Assembly (NCBI RefSeq): GCF_003614185.1
Contig: NZ_KZ987724.1
Location: 4,061,068 to 4,125,067 of the forward strand
Direction: 5' to 3'
DNA from: Paenibacillus aceti
GTDB lineage: Bacteria > Bacillota > Bacilli > Paenibacillales > Paenibacillaceae
Length of the DNA: 64,000 bases
Part shown: positions 23,505 through 60,348 of the stretch, one piece after another
Layout of the letters: every line of letters starts with the position of its first letter
How positions within the stretch are numbered: the first letter of the stretch is position 1
Notes under the pieces: generated by a model
Told to the model about the DNA's origin: nothing
The model's database searches: none
The model's input: the letters and a program-made list of their open reading frames with translations, nothing else
Position numbers and translations under genes: made by a program

Positions 23505-23521
23505 CGGGGGACGGGAGACAC

Positions 23522-23657
23522 TGACTATTGACCTATTAGCTTACAGCCTTACTGTCTACTGACTTATTGACTTATTGGCTTATTGACTTATTGGCTTATT
23601 GGCTTACTAACCTACTGTCTTACTATCTTACAGTCTGTAGTCTTGCTGACCTACTGC
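23522..23657. repeat. Degenerate 8-bp tandem repeat (about 17 units)
   Basis: From 23522 the sequence falls into 8-bp words of the form (G/A)CTTATTG / (C/T)CTTACTG for about 17 units, the central five nearly perfect. It is non-coding and directly follows the Sel1 gene. Confidence 0.8.
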
Positions 23658-23725
23658 CCTTCCGGCTACTGGATGCTGAACCTATACCGGTGGCTCATTT
23701 GTCACTTAACACTTGTTGCACCTCA

Positions 23726-23910
23726 AAACCTGCAGAAATGCAGGTTTTTCCAACCAAACCGACCTGTTTTTAGGAAATTCCTGCAAATATGCAGGCTTTT
23801 TGCCCTTTTATCCTGAAATCGGGGTTATATGAAGAAAAAGCCTGCATTATCGCAGGAATTTACTATCGTGGGGCGGATGACTGGGCAAATTCCTGCATAA
23901 TTGCAGGCTT
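23726..23910. repeat. Four-hairpin array, class II (CCTGCA-N4-TGCAGG)
   Basis: CCTGCA-N4-TGCAGG palindromes start at 23729, 23780, 23841 (one base off) and 23892, giving spacings of 51, 61 and 51 bp. Flanks are A/T-rich (AATT on one side, GCTTT on the other) and show that the third unit is inverted relative to the second and fourth. The spacing equals that of the unrelated-sequence array at 60141-60325. Each unit would form a 6-bp hairpin with a 4-nt loop. Function unknown. Confidence 0.85.
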
Positions 23911-23960
23911 TGGCGGGGACCGAGGCTTCGATAGCAAGCGAGCTAACCCGCTCTGCCACT

Positions 23961-24145
23961 CTAACGAAACGTCGTAACGCTATTCACGCCAATATGGACC
24001 TCCTAAAAATGCAACGAAACAGGGTAACGTTATTACGCCCAAATAGTAGCTTGAAGCATGGATTTTACTCAAATAGAGATACCGTGTTTCGTTAGAATCG
24101 AACTACCTCTGTTTTAGCGCAAATAGCGTTATGGTGTTTCGTTAG
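23961..24145. repeat. Four-hairpin array, class I copy A (CTAACGAAAC)
   Basis: Two direct units (CTAACGAAAC at 23961, GCAACGAAAC at 24011) face two inverted units (GTTTCGTTAG at 24086 and 24136). Each unit forms TAACG-N11-CG(T/C)TA or close to it; units start at 23962, 24012, 24074 and 24124, so spacing is 50, 62, 50 bp. The 185-bp layout is the same to the base at 43836-44020. It lies between convergent genes, directly after the class II array. Confidence 0.88.
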
Positions 24146-24168
24146 AGCGCTAGATCGAATCAACTATG

Positions 24169-43686: not shown

Positions 43687-43835
43687 CCTTACCTCCCAGG
43701 GCGATAACTCAAATTATATAAATTATACCATTCCAGGCAGGACAAAACGAAATCACACTGACGTTATGCAGCCAAATCGCCGAGCAAAAGGGATAAATTT
43801 GTGACAAACGAACAAGCAACCCGTCTTCCGCAGCT

Positions 43836-44020
43836 CTAACGAAACACCATATCGTTATTCCCGCAAAAACCCACCCAACACAAATCTAACGAAACACCAT
43901 ATCGCTATTTCGATGGAAATCCGCCATTTCGCCCCTATTTCGCCGCAATAGCGATCCCTAGTTTCGTTAGATTTCTAAATCGCCCTTTTTGACGCAGATA
44001 GCGTTACCTAGTTTCGTTAC
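43836..44020. repeat. Four-hairpin array, class I copy B (CTAACGAAAC)
   Basis: Direct units at 43836 and 43886 (CTAACGAAAC) and inverted units at 43961 and 44011 (GTTTCGTTAG/C). Hairpins TAACG-N11-CG(T/C)TA start at 43837, 43887, 43949 and 43999, spacing 50, 62, 50 bp, matching copy A to the base although the sequence between units differs. It lies in a ~470-bp gap between co-directional genes; the remainder of that gap (43687-43835, 44021-44154) is AT-rich and shows nothing I can name. Confidence 0.88.
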
Positions 44021-44154
44021 AAGACACATGACCTTGCGGTCAAATTTTAAAAACTTCGAATTAACTTTTTGGAGTGGAAAATCTTTTCGTCTCAAAAACG
44101 GAAAAGCTCATTTTCGTATAATTTAGGGCAGCGACGGCCCAAGGGTCGGTCGGC

Positions 44155-47045: not shown

Positions 47046-47790
47046 GACTGCCAAATCATGACCACCCGTCCAACGGGTGGTTTGCACTTGGGGTATAACC
47101 CCCTGTTGCCAAACTGCGCCTAAAGACGCTAGCCTGACCACAAATCTGTTCAGGCTCAGTGTAATTTGTCACTTTCACTAACCAGTTAAACTGGTTTATT
47201 TCTTTTTGCTCCTGTTACTGCTAAACGGATCTTCGTACTCTTTTACACTCAACTTATCTATTGCTTGGTCATGTGCTTCTTGTTCACGAATGTATTTTGC
47301 TACGGTTGCTTCATTTAGGCCCACTGTACTTACATAATAGCCTTCTGCCCAAAATTTTCGATTCCCATATTTATACTTTAGTTGCGCGTGCTTTTCAAAG
47401 ATCATTAGCGAACTTTTCCCCTTCAGATATCCCATGAATGTGGACACGGCTATCTTTGGGGGGATCGCTACCAGCATGTGTACATGATCTGGCATCATAT
47501 GACCTTCCAGGATGTCCACTCCCTTATACTTACATAAACGTTTGAAAATTTCGATTAAGTCTTTCCTCACTTGATTATAGATCTCTTTCCGTCTATACTT
47601 CGGGGTGAACACAATGTGGTATTTGCACATCCACTTCGTGTGAGCTAGACTATAGCTCTTGTTTGCCATCTAAGACCATTCCTTTCAATTGAGCCTGAAC
47701 ATCTCAATTCTATCGGGATGGTCTTATTGGTCAAACCCTCGATCCCTCCACCCGCATAGCGGGTGGTTTTTTGTTTCGCGCGTTTCACGC
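47046..47790 (-). mobile_element. IS200/IS605-family element (tnpA only), about 745 bp
   Basis: Imperfect hairpins CCACCCG-tccaa-CGGGTGG (47071-47089 region) and CCACCCG-catag-CGGGTGG (47749-47767 region) lie near the two ends, as expected for subterminal hairpins recognised by a Y1 transposase. There is no inverted-repeat terminus or target duplication. Edges are inferred from the restored host frame (SQLS-PYNGW). Confidence 0.9.
47196..47669 (-). CDS. tnpA: IS200/IS605-family Y1 transposase TnpA
   Basis: 157 residues. HUH metal motif HVH in MMPDHVHMLVAIPP, catalytic tyrosine in KYIREQ near residue 131, and the family start KWMCKYHIVFTPKYRRKEIY. Complete. No tnpB gene accompanies it, so the element is of the IS200 type. 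Confidence 0.95.
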   Translation of the reverse strand: MANKSYSLAHTKWMCKYHIVFTPKYRRKEIYNQVRKDLIEIFKRLCKYKGVDILEGHMMPDHVHMLVAIPPKIAVSTFMGYLKGKSSLMIFEKHAQLKYKYGNRKFWAEGYYVSTVGLNEATVAKYIREQEAHDQAIDKLSVKEYEDPFSSNRSKKK

Positions 47791-60066: not shown

Positions 60067-60140
60067 ATTTTATCCACTAGTCTAGTGTCATGGATTAATT
60101 CGATTTGGGTATCATCCATAATCCGCGGTAGCGCAGAATT

Positions 60141-60325
60141 TTAAGTGCAACTAATACACTTATTTTGAGGGATGGGTGGGGCAACGTTCTTTTAATTGTA
60201 TTTAGTACATTTAAAGTCCCCCCTCTTTTACCAAATCAATGAAATCGTGATTTCAAGTGTACTTTTTACAATTAAAATACAACTAGAGTCGATTTGTGTG
60301 AAGTTAGTTGTACTTTCTGCAATTA
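60141..60325. repeat. Four-hairpin array, class III (TGYA-N5-TRCA)
   Basis: Four short hairpins, TAAnTGYA-N5-TRCAnTTA or close to it, with TGYA at 60146, 60197, 60258 and 60309: spacings 51, 61 and 51 bp, the same as the class II array at 23726. It fills most of the 338-bp gap between the XRE-cupin gene and the lyase; the first 70 bp of that gap show nothing I can name. Confidence 0.82.
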
Positions 60326-60348
60326 GCAGAGCCACTCACTCCAGAATA

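Follow-up and report, generated by a model that had tools for sequence, protein, structure and literature searches.

What kind of element is built from four short palindromes whose spacing is nearly the same although their sequences are not? A first-pass annotation of the window (the whole 64,000-nt stretch of DNA analysed here) had pointed to intergenic groups of four hairpins that seemed to have one spacing in three unrelated sequences. Our results suggest that these arrays are probably dispersed non-coding recognition modules of a chromosomal family of nuclease-winged-helix proteins, with a paralogue located beside one class of array and that class scattered genome-wide in places that lack the gene.

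Four-palindrome arrays in the window

The following arrays were located in the window; for the first two, the strand is relative to an arbitrary consensus of the respective class.

23724..23911, strand -: class II four-palindrome array (CCTGCA-N4-TGCAGG type), with units of 25 bp each at 23724-23748, 23775-23799, 23836-23860 and 23887-23911, spacing 51/61/51 bp
23960..24146, strand -: class I four-palindrome array (TCTAACGAAAC...CGYTATT type), with 24-mers at 23961, 24011, 24072 and 24122 in the order forward, forward, reverse, reverse, spacing 50/61/50 bp
43835..44021 (43836-44020 in the scan), strand +: second class I array
60140..60327, strand +: class IIIb array (AATTGTA...TACAATT type), spacing 51/62/51 bp in the register of the sequence-free scan

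The annotation had placed the class II array and its 51/61/51 spacing correctly, but its third hairpin is imperfect (CCTGCA-N4-CGCAGG). For the class I array at 23960, both the position and the layout of two direct and two inverted units held, whereas the second of the four supposed TAACG hairpins starts with CAACG and the spacing was measured as 50/61/50 bp. A third sequence class had been noticed near 60.15 kb, and the class IIIb array indeed lies there. The stems of class II are GC-rich and are followed by T runs in the window sequence. A simple repeat tract resembling GACTTATTG (about 23520-23660) directly precedes the class II array, and the gap is short in relatives. The window also contains a c-di-GMP-I riboswitch (RF01051, 48.2 bits; 2508-2612, strand -) and a Y1 transposase gene (IS200 type, 157 aa; 47196-47669, strand -), one of 14 in the genome with equal scores.

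Copy number and sequence classes in the genome

We scanned the window together with 80 stretches of 20 kb distributed evenly over the chromosome (1.66 Mb; the exact 1.664 Mb counts 20 kb of stretch L105 twice) for four mutually similar 24-mers of any sequence, arranged forward/forward/reverse/reverse at 50-51/61-62/50-51 bp, with a score cut-off of 80. This sequence-free scan produced 86 matches at or above the cut-off and 85 distinct arrays, a count that leaves out matches scoring below 80 and the L105 duplicate of the window's array at 43836, as L105 overlaps the window. Extrapolation gives about 290 arrays per genome. Six decoys with shifted outer spacings yielded 0, 0, 0, 0, 1 and 0 matches in the same scan, and two decoys in which the middle spacing alone was shifted by 7 yielded 87 and 79; the latter were judged invalid because such a shift mostly moves the register of the inverted pair. 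When self-similarity of the units was not required, a plain palindrome-plus-spacing scan returned 18 matches at a score of at least 24 (0-5 in 14 decoys) and 32 at a score of at least 22 (4-15 in decoys), a weaker separation than that of the self-similarity scan. The spacing model proposed by the annotation exceeds its valid decoys with and without self-similarity and recovers mostly intergenic arrays of several classes.

The 85 arrays fall into class I (33), class II (20), class IIIa (15), class IIIb (6, two of which are copies of one duplication) and class IV (11), and at least four sequence classes have the 50/61/50-bp geometry in common. Describing the sequences as unrelated went too far; the classes resemble specificities of a single system that have diverged. 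Based on crude gene calls, 67 of the 85 arrays are intergenic, 15 overlap with called ORFs and 3 are at stretch ends; 28 of the 67 intergenic arrays lie between convergent genes, a type of gap that accounts for 71 of the 390 gaps with a length of 190 bp or more, and the median distance from an array to gene 3' ends is 81 bp. When the genome was queried with the 23.7-24.2 kb region, BLAST returned at least 66 matches along the chromosome (40 of 281 candidates scored), and the class I unit pattern matched 335 times forward and 342 times in reverse (677 units), compared with 1 and 5 matches for a reversed control. Exclusion of arrays from the terminus, considered on account of a gap at 1.47-3.2 Mb among the class I matches listed, was rejected, the sampled arrays being spread along the chromosome.

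Two near-identical class IIIb arrays, at L080:1371 and 1794, lie 423 bp apart and represent a recent tandem duplication. Arrays of class IV (L098, L049, L055 and other loci) are nested in a larger element whose ends are GGGGCTGTC...GACAGCCCC and which may be an array-carrying IS or MITE.

Rigid spacing over diverged linkers

The geometry of class I was further examined by a unit-profile search alone. A distance of 50 bp was found for 35 of 36 adjacent direct pairs and for all 37 inverted pairs of the second half. Complete quartets accounted for 34 of the 55 class I unit groups in the sampled genome; the other groups included no lone direct pair and one lone inverted pair (L078), the remainder being partial or single units. 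In a set of 113 different class I arrays taken from several species and selected for exact 50/61/50 spacing, mean identity was 81% in units and 49% in linkers. Since spacing is near-invariant while linkers diverge, linker length is kept and linker sequence is not, which supports the suggestion that the architecture of a non-autonomous element is what is selected. At about 10.2 bp per turn, spacings of 50, 61 and 50 bp correspond to 5, 6 and 5 turns, so that all units would face one side of the DNA. Among the structural functions initially considered, a nucleoprotein-type one, in the form of a DNA-protein geometry, fits best. In the 113-array alignment, units 3 and 4 of class I have common variants (columns 120/170 and 122/172).

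Gain, loss and retention among relatives

Six relatives were examined over 200 kb each using the same kind of four-unit scan with a wider middle spacing. It detected 15 matches (5 in G010, 6 in G019 and 4 in G011), compared with 1 in each of two decoys, and no array in the 200 kb each of G020, G029 and G039. About two thirds of the 15 belong, by eye, to new sequence classes with the geometry seen in the window. Class I is present in Paenibacillus, Saccharibacillus and Cohnella (named genomes among the matches listed). Whole class I arrays form tandem runs at L261, L226, L242 and L200, again in named Paenibacillus genomes among the matches listed; the period is 244 bp in Paenibacillus sp. GM2, and L261 has four arrays at that period.

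The copy number of arrays is very patchy among relatives, and individual loci also differ. G031, G011 and G032 lack the pair of arrays at 23.7 kb between the corresponding two genes; there, 115-125 bp separate two matching stretches that lie 697 bp apart in the window. G011 also lacks the class IIIb array at 60.1 kb in the corresponding gene gap, where the flanking stretches are 86-89% identical. The class I array at 43.8 kb has orthologous counterparts of identical geometry in G011 and G032, two other species. About 94 bp past this array (window about 44023-44116) are skipped by the G011 match, with a 5-bp overlap at the join. In one further gap, a class I array has opposite orientation in two species, as judged by eye.

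In five orthologous comparisons, geometry was identical, and differences affected 40 of 520 unit sites and 113 of 415 linker sites; this pool, in which two pairs have the window's array in common, is biased toward conserved units because three pairs include loci fetched by the class I motif. A sixth comparison outside the pool (G011 versus G032 at the 43.8-kb locus) gave 8 of 104 and 15 of 83 differences, respectively.

A search for target-site duplications over 2,601 offset/length combinations per class led to none being accepted in classes I, II, IIIa and IV; class I reached at best 6 of 32 two-base matches against an expected 1.7, class II reached 4 of 20 against 0.9, and IIIa and IV gave nothing. 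A joined-flank search for empty paralogous sites (57 queries, 19 spanning rows) revealed tandem copies only, either inside a single locus or from one tandem locus to another, and a second flank search gave no spanning row among the matches listed. The presence/absence differences that the annotation had proposed to look for do occur, but no clean empty site accompanied them. Searches for class I in plasmid and phage collections and for class II in plasmids gave no match. One class I array was observed on an IMG/VR contig (L280:9541-9723), beside a gene that clusters with cell-wall hydrolase-like proteins.

A nuclease-like gene family beside the arrays

The first-pass annotation had named no partner gene. 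Clustering of 503 proteins adjoining 212 arrays revealed a family of nuclease-like proteins beside arrays. At six loci the gene end lies 18-122 bp from an array, in one case of an unrelated class; these loci are a selected set, since they were found by the neighbour clustering itself. Of 41 genomes examined in the genus, 32 contain the family, with 1 to 11 matches each, and several paralogues per genome are the rule. Three sampled relatives without arrays have no family member, and three with arrays have 6-8.

The partner proteins, of about 220 aa, have a predicted DUF559/EDxHD-type nuclease-like domain and a C-terminal winged helix, as judged from profile and fold matches to one model. The DUF559 profile (PF04480) was passed by one of four members (L289, 22.9 bits against a cut-off of 20.6); L288 and L139 scored below it and L287 was not listed. 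The best Foldseek E-value for the one predicted model was 1.4e-3, the matched fold being the EDxHD catalytic domain, and the fold matches listed for a second model, from the class I branch, were winged-helix or similar small domains only. In a sequence alignment of eight members, D70, E83 and H90 (A3 numbering) are invariant in all eight and residue 85 varies between K, Q, H and D. At this position, two residues past the conserved E, some members have K, whereas the branch of classes I and IV has Q or H, so catalysis in that branch is uncertain. The family gave nothing significant in a sequence search of the PDB, and the member scanned had no Pfam match at E 0.001. NCBIfam, PADLOC and PHROGs returned weak matches alone, among them winged-helix regulators, SoFic and an endonuclease.

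Three paralogues are present in the window's genome, each with arrays of another class on its 3' side.

L287: class IV array beside the gene, palindrome centres 50/61/50/61/50/61 bp apart
L288: class IIIb arrays on both sides of the gene
L289: class II array about 405 bp away, three units seen at 61/50 bp and the remainder beyond the sequence examined

Six further paralogues, from G019 and G010 (6 of an initial choice of 20), were chosen blind to arrays, and arrays were found in the 300-bp 3' flanks of five of them: two complete and three running off the end of the flank. Among these three, the repeat signal exceeded all shuffles at L293 (52 bp apart) and, just barely, at L291 (17 versus at most 16), whereas that of L294 did not and rests on motif matches by eye. 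The sixth flank (L290) has, by eye, an IS110-like gene instead of an array. For comparison, 72 of 991 genes of the window's genome have an array within 450 bp of their 3' end, and arrays beside 8 of 9 genes would arise by chance, at p = 0.10, with a probability of 8e-8. Moreover, three of four gene-side arrays tested have a dispersed array of the same genome as their best match.

Related arrangements were detected beside other homologues. In L296, a viral-contig homologue from IMG/VR (37% identical), four palindromes lie about 50 bp downstream at 52/63/52 bp. The array scores 112 at this 52-bp spacing; the score was 69 (decoy level) at 50-51 bp, did not exceed 74 at any other outer spacing between 40 and 64 bp, and stayed at or below 65 in 30 shuffles. 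It is the only locus of the family found in scans of the viral collection, and the L289 protein had no match in the phage collection. Both homologues of P. cellulosilyticus (L297 and L298; NZ_CP054613.1) are located amid long runs of palindromes, about every 51 bp, which are tandem and do not form four-unit modules.

Class-specific association across genomes

Class II units and the class II-linked protein L289 were both sought in one set of 197 family genomes. At least five class II units were found in 23 of the 30 genomes with an L289 homologue of at least 344 bits versus 2 of the 167 others (Fisher p = 9e-22, with kinship ignored and the 344-bit line drawn post hoc); with the window's own genome left out, the former figure is 22 of 29. 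Some L289 homologue at E 1e-20 is present in 159 of the 197 genomes. Exceptions were seen on both sides: 7 of the 30 genomes with a close homologue have fewer than five units (four of them fewer than three), and two of the genomes without one have 7 and 9 units. A class II unit was located within 400 bp of the L289 homologue in 4 of 10 relatives, among the unit positions listed.

G052: about 21 bp after the gene
G205: 111 bp
G017: 297 bp
G188: 375 bp

The positions listed for G019, G022, G033, G067, G079 and G200 include no class II unit within 400 bp of the gene.

For class I, the number of units correlates with the best partner score across 41 genomes (Spearman 0.80, kinship ignored; -0.09 for a control pattern). 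The window's genome is a striking exception, having 677 class I units and a best partner score of 281 bits, compared with 355-407 bits in 18 other genomes, and class I therefore looks orphaned here. Taken class by class, each of the three paralogues of this genome lies beside a class of its own and arrays accompany five of the six others; class I has no close partner here.

A model for the arrays and its alternatives

The arrays, their geometry, their adjacency to the partner genes, the class-specific association and the greater conservation of units than of linkers were observed, the domain make-up being supported by profile and fold matches (one model), and the best reading of these results is a REPIN/RAYT-like system built on an unrelated nuclease, in which a protein assembly would fix the geometry and binding, cleavage and dispersal are inferred steps. 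The winged helix of a protein dimer may read each palindrome. The 50/61/50 spacing would set four dimers on one face of the DNA, and paired nuclease domains might bridge neighbouring sites. We propose that because such a bridging assembly needs fixed phasing, the geometry stays constant while the sequence changes with each paralogue; as paralogues shift specificity, the arrays would follow. Cleavage at or near the arrays may drive their copying, tandem growth and spread, by analogy with RAYTs and REPINs. RAYT proteins are thought to drive the copying and spread of REPINs. Repair-driven copying would fit both the tandem growth of arrays and the common variants of units 3 and 4. The fuller claim, that this is a separate bacterial genome-wide repeat system of paralogues with private four-palindrome codes for programmed cutting or bridging, whose pairs coexist and turn over between species, appears to us about evenly balanced.

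The main rival is a domesticated architectural role, in which a DNA-binding and perhaps non-cutting protein serves as an organiser or regulator and the arrays are host-selected sites near gene ends. The conservation of units over linkers at orthologous loci (40/520 versus 113/415), the enrichment between convergent genes (28/67 versus 71/390 gaps) and near 3' ends (median 81 bp), and the Q/H change in one branch, which hints at lost catalysis, would all suit a host function; yet promoter avoidance alone could explain the 3' bias, and the patchy copy number, the absence at syntenic loci and the orphan class I suggest parasite-like turnover, so that we regard this role as rather unlikely, albeit a serious contender. 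Considerably less probable are MITEs of a DDE transposase, where R1-R2 and R3-R4 would be two-site ends and an autonomous copy would carry the transposase between them. Such elements would account for inverted ends, dispersed copies and the larger element with GGGGCTGTC...GACAGCCCC ends around class IV arrays, but no target duplication was found in classes I, II, IIIa and IV, no class I half-arrays flanked a gene among the 55 unit groups of the 1.66-Mb sample, and the linked gene is predicted to be nuclease-like, not DDE.

The four-hairpin RNA favoured by some features of the sequence, or a tandem terminator, is very improbable. The GC-rich stems of class II with their T runs, the folding of class consensus sequences as long hairpins and the alignment fold energy of class IV (-62) are in its favour, the last coming from close copies of a young class; against it, the arrays in the window had no match in Rfam, the energies of classes I (-13), II (-21), IIIa (-8) and IIIb (-27) are weak, and separate hairpins need no rigid spacing over diverged linkers. 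Compensatory stem changes, which the annotation had named as a sign of support, did not appear either: in the covariation set, which consisted of class I alone (113 arrays), the 40 strongest covarying column pairs contained no helix, a few single pairs being complementary in about half of the arrays. A cloverleaf, that is, four-way-junction pairing of right and left half-sites, was suggestive by eye in classes II and III and was rejected, the covarying columns of class I having no helix. As for REP/REPIN elements mobilised by a RAYT (Y1, HUH) transposase, the life style is alike, with extragenic palindromic repeats beside a single-copy partner as outlined in parts of PMC3116915. However, the 14 Y1 (PF01797) matches in the genome all have equal score and length and correspond to the IS200-type 157-aa protein, none of the six Y1 genes in the sampled DNA is closer than about 3 kb to an array of the sequence-free scan, and the partner has another predicted fold; this origin is therefore scarcely credible. 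Because no RAYT gene was found, the earlier placement of the arrays nearest to REP/BIME families fails as a statement of descent.

Comparison with known systems

The closest parallel to the preferred reading, a nuclease-based system resembling REPINs, remains one of organisation. As outlined in parts of PMC3116915, a genome may carry several classes of palindromic extragenic repeats, each beside a single-copy partner with which it co-diversifies; here too, hundreds of short palindromic extragenic repeats occur in several classes, with a distinct partner gene per class and co-diversification. The systems differ in the partner, which is a Y1 HUH enzyme for REPINs and here a nuclease-like protein of the DUF559/EDxHD type that also has a winged helix. 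They differ in the module as well: in place of the REPIN doublet there are four palindromes spaced 50/61/50 bp (quartets make up 34 of the 55 class I groups), although a 50-bp pair may be the sub-unit within a quartet. REPs carry a GTAG/CGTC tag at one end, according to parts of PMC3733652. BIMEs also comprise regularly spaced palindromic units in both orientations (PMC2817692, in part); the present arrays differ in their fixed four-unit helical-phase spacing and nuclease-like partner. EDxHD homing endonucleases such as I-Bth0305I (described in parts of PMC3943268) have the fold matched here, but in our case non-coding target arrays have multiplied and there is no sign of the gene itself homing. 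MITEs are likewise small, dispersed and non-coding with inverted ends, whereas here no target duplication (classes I, II, IIIa and IV) and, for class I in the 1.66-Mb sample, no transposase counterpart was found. CRISPR arrays have short repeats, regular spacing and a linked nuclease gene (nuclease-like here), but the linkers of the present arrays are homologous between copies (49% identical on average in class I), the arrays are dispersed and four units are typical; no cas family was detected among the 8 neighbour proteins scanned (of 503).

We take the system to be new, because neither a nuclease-like partner nor a 5-6-5-turn module is a feature of any repeat system that we can name; on a stricter reading, it might be one more form of the REPIN kind. 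In searches of the open-access literature, no title or abstract among the papers listed described such arrays or a DUF559 protein with palindromic repeats. If true, our interpretation would provide a second, unrelated answer to how a chromosomal protein keeps hundreds of non-coding repeats in the long term, besides that of REPINs and RAYTs, and would account for many intergenic repeats of Paenibacillaceae. With many classes per family, the paralogous proteins offer a natural collection of DNA readers together with their candidate cognate sites, and such pairs would be useful for studying winged-helix specificity and the geometry of multi-site assembly.

A long CRISPR-like array was also observed in the sampled chromosome (L090:12010-15250), with the repeat GTCGCATCCTTCGTGGATGCGTGGATTGAAAG and a variant repeat in its second part; the flank of the class IIIb duplication in L080 has sequence in common with it.
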